Of a stretch of 64,000 bases of DNA, positions 5,880 through 9,290 are shown one piece after another. Within the stretch, counting starts at the first letter, position 1. Each line of letters opens with the position of its first letter. The notes under the pieces are model-generated. The model saw only the letters and a program-made list of their open reading frames with translations. It had not been told where the DNA came from and did not search any database. The position numbers and the translations under genes are program-made. This DNA comes from an uncultured Spirochaetales bacterium (GTDB lineage: Bacteria; Spirochaetota; Spirochaetia; Sphaerochaetales; Sphaerochaetaceae). The stretch covers positions 62,001 through 126,000 of the forward strand of contig CASEKE010000045.1 in assembly GCA_949288415.1 (NCBI GenBank). The letters run 5' to 3'.

Positions 5880-7343
5880 ATGGACAAGGAACTTTGGGAG
5901 CGTGTCAAGGAACAGCTGGAATCAAGCCTTCCAAACAAGAAGAAAGTCTGGTTCAAGAAGGTCTTCTTCGTAAGCAGTACAGAAGACGAGATCACTCTGG
6001 GTCTCAACTCGTCATTCTGTCTCCAGGGACTGGAGAGGAATGGAATAGAGGAAATAGTCAACACTGCAAGCGAATTTGCAGGACATCAGGTCTCGATCAA
6101 GCTGATAGTCACGGACCAGAAAGCAGTGCAGGAATCATCGAAGCAAGCTGAAAGAGAAGACGGACGTACCGCATCTTCGCAAAAGCCGTCATCGCAGTCG
6201 ACATTGCCGGAAAAAGGGAAAAAGGCAGATGAAAGCAATGAGTCTGCACCGTACGGAACTACGTCGACCCAGTATTCGATGAACGAAGAGACACATTTGA
6301 ATCCGCACTATACGTTCGACAATTTCGTAGTCGGGGACAATAACAACTTCGCATATAACGCAGCAAAGGTAATCTCCAGAAATCCAGGCCTCAGCTACAA
6401 TCCATGCCTTATCTACGGAGGAGTAGGTTTGGGAAAGACCCATCTGCTGCAAGCAATCGGAAACTACATAGTGAAGGACAATCCGAAGATGAATGTCCTG
6501 TACATAACAGCCGAGAGCTTCACCAACGAGCTGATAAACGCAATCTTCAAAAAGAATGCTTCGACACTCTTCAAGAAGAAATACCGAAGCGTCGATGTGC
6601 TTCTGATCGACGACATACATTTCCTCCAGGACAAGGAGTCTTCTCAGGAGGAACTGTTCCATACATTCAATGATCTCACAGAGAGAAACAAACAGATAGT
6701 ATTCACCTGCGATCGTCCCATAACGGAACTGAAAGGAATAACGGAACGCCTCAGAACAAGATTCACGAAAGGTACAAACGTAGATCTGCAGCCACCTCTC
6801 TACGAGACAAGAATGGCCATAGTGCAGAAAAAATGCGAAGAAATGCATTACGATATTCCTCGTGACATACAGGAACTAATCTGCCAGAACATAAAGACCA
6901 ACGTAAGGGATCTTGAAGGGGCACTCATAACGCTGGATTCGTTCTCAAAGCTCGTAGGAAAGGAGATAACAAAAAAAGTGGCTCTCGACCACATAAGAAA
7001 CTTCATTCCTGCCACGGTTCTCAAGGAATCCGAAATAACGATAGATAGAATAATCGACGAAACTGGAAAATACTTCAACATACCGTCTTCGGAATTAAAA
7101 AGCAGATCAAGAAATAAAAATGTAGCTACTCCGAGACACATTGCAATATATATAGCAAGTGAAATGACGACAAGAAGCCTTTCGGAGATAGGAAAAAGCT
7201 TCAACATACAGGACCATACATCTGTAAAATACGCAATAGACAAAATCGCCGCCAACATAAAGGAAGACGAAGATCTCAAGAACATAATATCGAATATAAA
7301 GAAAGCGATAATGGACGAGAACGACGACAGGATCTACAGATAA
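5880..7343 (+). CDS. dnaA: Chromosomal replication initiator DnaA
   Basis: Binds DnaA boxes at oriC and melts the origin. The 487-aa protein has the N-terminal interaction domain, a variable linker at about residues 80-140, an AAA+ core with Walker A GGVGLGKT (180-187) and Walker B VLLIDDIHFL, and a C-terminal helix-turn-helix with the signature QDHTSVKYAIDKI that reads the box. The start follows a GAGGAGG ribosome site. It lies immediately upstream of the box-rich oriC at 7344-8186 and is divergent from gyrB, the usual bacterial arrangement. Confidence 0.98.
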   Translation: MDKELWERVKEQLESSLPNKKKVWFKKVFFVSSTEDEITLGLNSSFCLQGLERNGIEEIVNTASEFAGHQVSIKLIVTDQKAVQESSKQAEREDGRTASSQKPSSQSTLPEKGKKADESNESAPYGTTSTQYSMNEETHLNPHYTFDNFVVGDNNNFAYNAAKVISRNPGLSYNPCLIYGGVGLGKTHLLQAIGNYIVKDNPKMNVLYITAESFTNELINAIFKKNASTLFKKKYRSVDVLLIDDIHFLQDKESSQEELFHTFNDLTERNKQIVFTCDRPITELKGITERLRTRFTKGTNVDLQPPLYETRMAIVQKKCEEMHYDIPRDIQELICQNIKTNVRDLEGALITLDSFSKLVGKEITKKVALDHIRNFIPATVLKESEITIDRIIDETGKYFNIPSSELKSRSRNKNVATPRHIAIYIASEMTTRSLSEIGKSFNIQDHTSVKYAIDKIAANIKEDEDLKNIISNIKKAIMDENDDRIYR

Positions 7344-7407
7344 GAAGAAGCAGTATCTCCGTTAGTAATACTCCACGTCAAAATTATGATTACGTACATC
7401 GATAAGG

Positions 7408-7437
7408 TCTTCCGTCATGAAAAGGCGGAAAGTTTTT
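7408..7437 (+). terminator. Possible dnaA terminator
   Basis: CTTCCG and CGGAAAG can pair with a bulge, and five T follow at 7433-7437. It is about 65 bp after the dnaA stop. The stem is short and imperfect. Confidence 0.4.
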
Positions 7438-7633
7438 CCATTTTAAGAACAATCTATTGCGTTTGCTCGGACATGGACTGCATCAACAAAGGTTTAATAT
7501 ATTATTTAATCAATTTTTATCATTAAATAAAATATATTTTTATATAATAATATATATAATTATTTTAAGTATTTTTTTCTGATTAATATAATTTTATTAT
7601 TTTATTTTATAAAATAATATTTTTTGTTTTTAG

Positions 7634-7662
7634 TTGACATAATATATATTATAATATAAAAT
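7634..7662 (+). promoter_or_regulatory. Promoter inside oriC
   Basis: A perfect TTGACA (7634-7639) and TAAAAT (7657-7662) are spaced 17 bp, at the edge of the AT-rich tract. It would drive transcription across the DnaA boxes and through the small ORF at 7707. Confidence 0.6.
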
Positions 7663-7706
7663 ATCAAATGTAAAACAATTTGATACAATAAAAGGAGGTA
7701 ATACAG

Positions 7707-7832
7707 TTGAAAGTTTTCCTCGTCAATGTGGAAAAGTCGGTGGAAAACATGAGGAAAACCTGTGGAAACATTGTGGATAATCTGAGGAAAAAAAACAGTT
7801 TTTCCACGGGAATGCAGAAGCAAAAGAGATGA
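7707..7832 (+). CDS. Putative 41-aa ORF across the DnaA boxes
   Basis: A TTG codon lies 8 nt after a near-perfect Shine-Dalgarno AAAGGAGGT (7691-7699) and opens a 41-codon frame that runs through several DnaA boxes before TGA. The product is short, basic and starts MKVFLVNVEKSV. No homology is recognised. Because box sequences dictate most codons, the peptide may have no function. The act of transcription or translation could still affect origin melting. The strong ribosome site and upstream promoter are what support it. Confidence 0.4.
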   Translation: MKVFLVNVEKSVENMRKTCGNIVDNLRKKNSFSTGMQKQKR

Positions 7833-8033
7833 GGTAGAAGCAGTATGTGGAATACCTGTGGAAAAAAGATGGACTTTTCCACAGTTTTATCCACACCTCA
7901 ATTTCTTTTAAGAGAATGAAAAATATAGAGTTTTCCTTGTTTTCCACATTCCTATTACTACTACTAGTTATATAAATATGAAAAATAGTAGTTATTGTTG
8001 CAACGAGGAAAAAAAAGAGGAAAAGCAAACAGC

Positions 8034-8062
8034 TTAAAAAATAGACTGATTGCTGTTATAAT
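8034..8062 (+). promoter_or_regulatory. dnaN promoter
   Basis: An extended -10, TG-T-TATAAT (TATAAT 8057-8062), has a weak -35 TTAAAA (8034-8039) at 17 bp. It leaves a leader of about 120 nt before dnaN. Confidence 0.6.
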
Positions 8063-8186: not shown

Positions 8187-9290
8187 ATGAAGTTCATATG
8201 TTCATGTGAAGCATTGAAGAAAGAGATAGGTTTCGCTATAAATTTCACAAGCAAGCGAAATGCTCTTTCCATCTCCAGCAACGTTCTTCTGGAGAACAGC
8301 AACAACGTACTTACCATAAAGAGTACCGATACGAAGAACGGCTTCGTAGGCAGCATCGAAGTCGAGACCATCATACCAGGTTCGACCACTGTCATATGTG
8401 AAAAGCTGCTCGACGTACTCAAGAACATCCCTTCGGACATATCGCTGGAAATAAATGAAGAGAACGACAAACTATCCATAAGAAATAACAGCGAAAGTAA
8501 GTTTCTTGTAAACATCAGGACAATAAGCAGCGAGAAATATCCTGAGATGCTTACAATATCCGATGATGAATTCTTCACGATCGGTCAGCATGATTTCTTT
8601 TCTATGATAGACAAGACACTGTTTGCCGTGAGCAAGGACGAAGCCAGGTACTTCCTTACCGGCGTCTACATGGAGAAAAAAGATGACAAACTCGTTCTTG
8701 TAGCCACAGATGGAAAAAGACTTGCCTGCATAAGAAAGGAGATAGAACACGAGATTCCTACTTTCAATCCAGTGATTCTTCCTCCTTCGTTCCTGATGAA
8801 CCTCAAGACCATAGGAAGCGGAGACGGAGTACTGTCTCTTGCCATAAAAGATGGTTCCATATTTGCGAACATCGAAGGACATCTCATATATTCGCTTCTC
8901 ATAACAGGTTCCTATCCTGCATATGAGAGAGTGATACCAAAGGATTTCAGCTACAGATGCATCGCCGATACCTCCGATATGGTCAACGCTATAAATCTTA
9001 TATCTGTCATGATCGAGATAAAGAGCAGGAAGATTTTCTTCGACATCAACACAGAAGGTGTGATGGTAAGCGGAGAAGACAACGACGGAGACAGCAAGAA
9101 CATTATACATTGCAGCTACGACGGTCCCGAGACCAAGCTATGCTTCAATTACAATTTTCTGCAGGATGCTATAAAGAAGATAGACAGCAAGAATTTCTGC
9201 ATCGCTTTCAACAATGCAACAAGTGCAGTCGGAATTCTTTCCGATCCTGAATCCGATTACATCTTCATCATCATGCCGATGCAGTCATGA
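8187..9290 (+). CDS. dnaN: DNA polymerase III beta sliding clamp
   Basis: Ring-shaped processivity clamp that tethers the replicative polymerase to DNA. At 367 aa it has the normal length for three tandem clamp domains. It opens with MKFICSCEALKKEI, and DGKRLA, a family hallmark, is present in the middle. The C-terminus IIMPMQS is the typical clamp end (PMR/PMQ type). The start has GGAGA upstream. The stop overlaps recF by 4 nt (ATGA), so the two are translationally coupled. Confidence 0.97.
   Translation: MKFICSCEALKKEIGFAINFTSKRNALSISSNVLLENSNNVLTIKSTDTKNGFVGSIEVETIIPGSTTVICEKLLDVLKNIPSDISLEINEENDKLSIRNNSESKFLVNIRTISSEKYPEMLTISDDEFFTIGQHDFFSMIDKTLFAVSKDEARYFLTGVYMEKKDDKLVLVATDGKRLACIRKEIEHEIPTFNPVILPPSFLMNLKTIGSGDGVLSLAIKDGSIFANIEGHLIYSLLITGSYPAYERVIPKDFSYRCIADTSDMVNAINLISVMIEIKSRKIFFDINTEGVMVSGEDNDGDSKNIIHCSYDGPETKLCFNYNFLQDAIKKIDSKNFCIAFNNATSAVGILSDPESDYIFIIMPMQS

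Follow-up and report, generated by a model that had tools for sequence, protein, structure and literature searches.

The region between dnaA and dnaN in the genome of this uncultured spirochaete is, judging by its sequence, a replication origin of a known kind, made of DnaA boxes and DnaA-trios, and its melting site is predicted at about 7950-7990. A frame of 41 codons runs through many of the boxes, behind a good promoter and ribosome site. The explanation that we favour, and hold with fairly good confidence, is that DnaA loads at the boxes and melts the origin at the trios, that the frame stays open by way of the stop-poor boxes, and that the promoter and ribosome site are lineage-specific and take no part in a conserved origin function.

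The window (the whole stretch of 64,000 nt that was analysed) contains, in this order, gyrB (on the minus strand), dnaA, an intergenic region of 843 nt, dnaN and recF, and each of these four genes is named by NCBIfam equivalog models above cut-off. The main elements around the box array are:

5880-7343, plus strand: dnaA, an ORF of 487 aa (NCBIfam TIGR00362 DnaA, 476.9 bits, cut-off 343.9)
7410-7430, plus strand: terminator-like hairpin 3' of dnaA, from a consensus scan only
7490-7706, no strand: very AT-rich block of 10% GC, by composition, within the gap of about 370 nt between dnaA and the array
8034-8062, plus strand: probable dnaN promoter, TTAAAA-17-TATAAT with a TG, from a promoter scan
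8187-9290, plus strand: dnaN, an ORF of 367 aa (NCBIfam TIGR00663, 262.2 bits, cut-off 137.65)

An extended -10-like site (TG-N-hexamer, at least 5/6) is found 3' of the trios in 30 of 45 regions, and such a site is likely to be the dnaN promoter. When the genome was searched for a second copy of the origin region, only short weak matches were found besides the region itself. A known RNA at this locus was considered and rejected, as the Rfam search of the region gave two sub-threshold matches (E of 0.72 and 0.9) that are not credible.

Our comparison takes the dnaA-dnaN region from each of 44 relatives, of which 42 belong to the same genus and 2 (L010 and L011) to Treponema; the named relatives in the dnaA search were an uncultured Spirochaetaceae MAG and two Treponema MAGs. 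A dnaA gene was found in 43 of the 48 genus genomes, our own included, and the five with no match (G009, G031, G043, G046 and G047) were left out of the 44. Since L009 and L020 are apparently one contig, L020 alone was counted, and L021, where dnaN had no match within the flank, gave way to L055, which is longer and comes from that genome as well. The dnaN gene is alignable in all 44 relatives.

The exact DnaA-box matches cluster at 7727-7948 and lead up to a run of trios on the dnaN side:

7714-7722, plus strand: degenerate rightward DnaA box TTTTCCTCG, from the box scan
7727-7791, minus strand: six leftward DnaA boxes, in steps of 12, 11, 11, 11 and 11 nt, from the box scan
7800-7808, plus strand: rightward DnaA box TTTTCCACG, from the box scan
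7846-7865, minus strand: two leftward DnaA boxes, 11 nt apart, from the box scan
7856-7884, plus strand: 10-bp hairpin formed by an inverted box pair and followed by TTTTAT, from the fold of 7850-7895
7875-7895, plus strand: tandem rightward boxes, TTTTCCACA-3 nt-TTATCCACA, from the box scan
7940-7948, plus strand: DnaA box TTTTCCACA, adjoining the trios, from the box scan
7952-7966, minus strand: DnaA-trio run 3'-GAT AAT GAT GAT GAT-5', the predicted unwinding site, from trio scoring

The DnaA-trio consensus is given as 3'-GAT-5' (PMC6669920) or 3'-[G/A]A[T/A]-5' (PMC7561715), and a run of the latter on one strand, as in a basal unwinding system, is present at 7952-7966. This run (CTATTACTACTACTA) begins 3 nt past the box at 7940-7948; where PMC7561715 places a GC cluster ahead of the trios, only TTC stands between box and trios here, and 0-15 nt in the relatives. 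Of the co-oriented pair of boxes expected beside the trios in such a system, one is this box, and the next two co-oriented boxes (7875 and 7887) end 44 nt before it. A trio-like run was found in all 45 intergenic regions, scoring 6 to 9.5 of 10, with 16 of the 45 at only 6 or 6.5, and just 4 of 900 letter shuffles scored as high as the region they came from. Counting from the dnaA end, the run lies at 68-92% of the intergenic distance in 44 of the 45 regions and at 15% in L055 (G039:C33), where dnaN is 1977 nt from dnaA and more than 1 kb of extra sequence follows the trios. The melting element that these genomes share thus seems to be the trios on the dnaN side, which are the predicted basal unwinding system. 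By analogy with Bacillus subtilis, DnaA would load at the boxes, spread onto the trio strand and open the DNA at about 7950-7990.

The spacing of the boxes also has counterparts among the relatives. Their commonest leftward step is 11 nt (33 of 116 intervals of at most 40 nt), and a rightward step of 12 nt makes up 30 of 43 such intervals; the tandem rightward pair with this step recurs among them. A rightward box stands 2-6 nt before a leftward one in 34 of the 44 relatives, and here this pair is formed by the boxes at 7714 and 7727, just past the start codon of the 41-codon frame.

The promoter and the frame behind it, which the preliminary description had reported, are present where it placed them:

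7634-7662, plus strand: sigma-70-like promoter TTGACA-17-TAAAAT, matching the consensus at 11 of 12 positions (TTGACA at 7634-7639, 17 nt, TAAAAT at 7657-7662)
7691-7699, plus strand: Shine-Dalgarno-like (SD) sequence AAAGGAGGT, from a motif scan
7707-7832, plus strand: frame of 41 codons from the ORF list, with the start TTG at 7707, seven nt past AAAGGAGGT, and the stop TGA at 7830-7832; a probable by-product of stop-poor DnaA boxes

A plus-strand promoter of at least 11/12 appeared in 3.5% of 3000 dinucleotide shuffles of 7490-7706, and in 3.0% of 600 when the entire intergenic region was shuffled. The 8-base AAGGAGGT turned up in 1.9% of 3000 shuffles, and an SD of 7 bases followed by a start in 7.4%. 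We searched 464 kb (the window and 20 stretches of this genome, both strands) and found a promoter of at least 11/12, then an SD of at least 7 bases, then a start, only once, at this locus, and not at all in the same 464 kb reversed. With the promoter relaxed to at least 10/12 there were three such successions, and again none in the reversed sequence. So good a ribosome site had been called unexpected for a non-coding region, and together with the promoter it is indeed surprising.

On the other hand, it is not unusual for a good SD to be followed by a short ORF. Outside ORFs of at least 110 aa, which is what we counted as intergenic, the 464 kb hold 61 SDs of at least 7 bases, of which 38 precede ORFs of at least 100 aa, 14 lack a start, and 9, ours among them, lead into shorter ORFs. 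On the strand opposite to genes, SD-like sites have a start behind them by chance in 23 of 64 cases (36%), so about 8 short ORFs are expected behind intergenic SDs, as against the 9 seen. In the whole genome AAAGGAGGT occurs 22 times, 10 of them with a start and an ORF of at least 100 aa behind them; the same letters backwards occur 66 times, so that the genome may avoid the complete Shine-Dalgarno string. It is therefore the combination of promoter and SD that is unusual. As this combination is unique in 464 kb, a lineage-specific transcript is plausible, and the promoter and ribosome site may start a real one. We also considered whether the SD is hidden in a hairpin and rejected this, since folding of the 72-nt leader is unremarkable, 115 of 200 shuffles being as stable. 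The 237-nt transcript does fold better than its shuffles (2 of 200 as stable), which the inverted boxes can explain.

The promoter and ribosome site sit in the roughly 370 nt, largely AT-rich, that separate dnaA from the array. The first DnaA box (at most 1 mismatch) lies 383 nt past the dnaA stop here, compared with 0-174 nt in the 44 relatives; the array begins at most 10 nt from the dnaA stop in 28 of them, which leaves no room there for such a leader, and within 174 nt in the rest. The block at 7490-7706 is 217 nt long and carries long imperfect AT palindromes. GC content over the 100 nt preceding the array is 17% here, 15% in L025, 26% in L024 and 48% in L046. By this comparison the AT-rich stretch with its promoter and ribosome site, which is known from a single MAG contig, is lineage-specific. 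A second unwinding site at this left block was considered as well, and rejected as unlikely, though this lineage may have one: no trio run comparable to that at 7952 (score 9.5) was found on either strand of the dnaA side of the array (7344-7726), where the best scores are 3.0 and 4.5 for the two strands, and the closeness of the array to dnaA in those 28 relatives also disfavours it.

None of the 44 relatives has a promoter of at least 11/12 before the trios, and 6 have one of 10/12. An SD of at least 6 bases with a start is found before the trios in a single relative (L041, an SD of 6 and 9 codons). The in-register frame is open for at least 34 codons in 8 of the 44, and some frame is so in 19; in 10 of the 44 only the first leftward box served to anchor this test, and its anchor pair in L054 is not the first of the array. 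In the nearest relatives by DnaN identity (76, 75 and 74%) that frame runs for 12, 8 and 13 codons. The ribosome site and frame, whose conservation had been proposed as the check, are thus not kept in relatives of which the nearest has 76% DnaN identity, and relatives at 74-76% are too distant to reveal a recent small ORF under selection. Any transcript from 7634 is, on this comparison, not a conserved part of origin function.

The frame itself has a simple explanation. It spans the six leftward boxes (7727, 7739, 7750, 7761, 7772 and 7783), so that it does cross most of the left-hand boxes as first described, together with the rightward box at 7800 and the degenerate one at 7714. TGTGGAAAA, TTTTCCACA and TTATCCACA have no stops in their three frames and TGTGGATAA has one, in one frame. 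Across 7710-7829 stops number 0, 2 and 1 in the plus frames, and 0, 0 and 1 in the minus frames; minus-strand ORFs of 73, 76 and 101 aa span the same boxes. The frame is probably open because DnaA boxes, mostly in 11-bp steps, hold almost no stop codons. Its length is ordinary and not beyond chance, 40 open codons after the start being reached in 12% of 5000 dinucleotide shuffles. The possibility that the boxes merely lack stops, which the preliminary description had kept as its alternative, is accordingly the one that fits best. A -1 frameshift at the A8 tract (7788-7795) was rejected, as translation would end after 14 codons.

It had been suggested that transcription through the origin could aid melting and that a ribosome-engaged transcript could tune it. 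A conserved, translated transcript that aids melting finds no support, since neither promoter, SD nor frame is kept in the 44 relatives, and the trio run, which is shared by all 45 regions and lies on the dnaN side in 44, is where the promoter would point the polymerase, as mioC does in Escherichia coli. There, transcription into oriC (mioC) inhibits initiation and transcription away from it (gidA) promotes it, and transcription away from, not into, oriC sufficed to bypass a ppGpp block (PMC6606810). Transcription from 7634 would push positive supercoils ahead of it, towards the trios. Should transcription indeed assist opening here, a better candidate would be the dnaN promoter, whose direction is away from the trios.

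The same E. coli precedent favours a different role, in which both signals work and produce a lineage-specific transcript, headed by a short translated leader, that runs into the origin; it would brake initiation through mioC-like supercoils or collision with bound DnaA and would not aid melting. The motif and direction fit mioC-like transcription into oriC, the promoter being predicted from the motif only; the promoter-SD-start combination, unique in 464 kb and absent from the reversed control, also speaks for it, and the AT-rich block upstream could act as an UP element. We nevertheless consider a brake of this kind unlikely. A promoter match of this quality is reached by 3.5% of local shuffles and by no relative, the SD-led frame is not kept, and preventing transcription of gidA or mioC on the E. 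coli chromosome was without effect in exponential phase (PMC6606810). Moreover, the hairpin and TTTTAT at 7856-7884 might end a rightward transcript from 7634 before the trios: the fold of 7850-7895 reaches -12 kcal/mol, a stability equalled by 3 of 200 shuffles, and the hairpin is outside our terminator scan, which allows loops of 3-8. A fuller version seems to us more doubtful still. In it, a strong promoter and ribosome site would have come to the left edge of oriC with an AT-rich insertion, and a translated transcript would now cross the boxes; the passage of ribosomes and polymerases would clear DnaA or add positive supercoils, tying initiation to growth state.

It is likewise quite improbable, in our view, that the promoter at 7634 is a second, upstream dnaN promoter, replacing readthrough from dnaA that would have been cut by the insertion and the hairpin at 7410-7430, with SD and ORF incidental. 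It is on the same strand as dnaN, a terminator-like hairpin does follow dnaA, and readthrough would be possible in the 28 relatives where dnaA ends at the array; yet dnaN owns the promoter-like site at 8034-8062, of a type found past the trios in 30 of 45 regions, and the hairpin at 7856-7884 intervenes. That the frame encodes a functional small protein is the least probable of all, its good SD, start spacing and promoter notwithstanding: frame and SD are not kept in relatives, the peptide has no match in Pfam or NCBIfam, most of its residues are translated boxes, and a search of the genus gave only weak matches (15 of 48 genomes at E of at most 10, own included), several of them in relatives' box arrays and some without a stop (e.g. 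G026 at E 0.04), the best outside its own genome (E 0.002, G040) having a TAA inside. The frame is thus probably a chance product of the boxes and its peptide probably not functional.

These results suggest that open frames within DnaA-box arrays are to be expected as by-products, the boxes being almost stop-free on either strand. The box array and DnaA-trios offer a shared, testable origin map for an uncultured spirochaete genus, and the promoter, if active, would be a natural case of transcription aimed into an origin.

In Vibrio cholerae, rctA is part of the RctB system, on chromosome II, and not of a DnaA-box array. It resembles the present case, if the promoter here is active, as a transcribed stretch beside a replication origin, and its transcription is reported to inhibit its negative influence on RctB (PMC3141006). 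E. coli mioC has a promoter aimed at the melting site, but it is a gene flanking oriC, whereas here a 41-codon frame lies within the box array behind a predicted promoter (PMC6606810). A translated ORF across oriC boxes was not found in a non-exhaustive search of the literature. The origin itself resembles the basal unwinding system of B. subtilis incC, also 3' of dnaA, with boxes and then repeated 3'-GAT-5' trios on one strand and more boxes upstream (PMC6669920, PMC10721633); here, by contrast, the tandem boxes (7875 and 7887) end 44 nt before the trio-adjoining box, an extra AT-rich stretch and a promoter lie on the dnaA side, and unwinding is predicted from sequence. The oriC2 of Clostridioides difficile, again 3' of dnaA, has a trio run, CACCTACTACTATTACTACTATGA, that closely resembles CTATTACTACTACTA; that origin is described as bipartite, and its DnaA-dependent unwinding was tested by experiment, whereas the present one is known from its sequence (PMC7561715).
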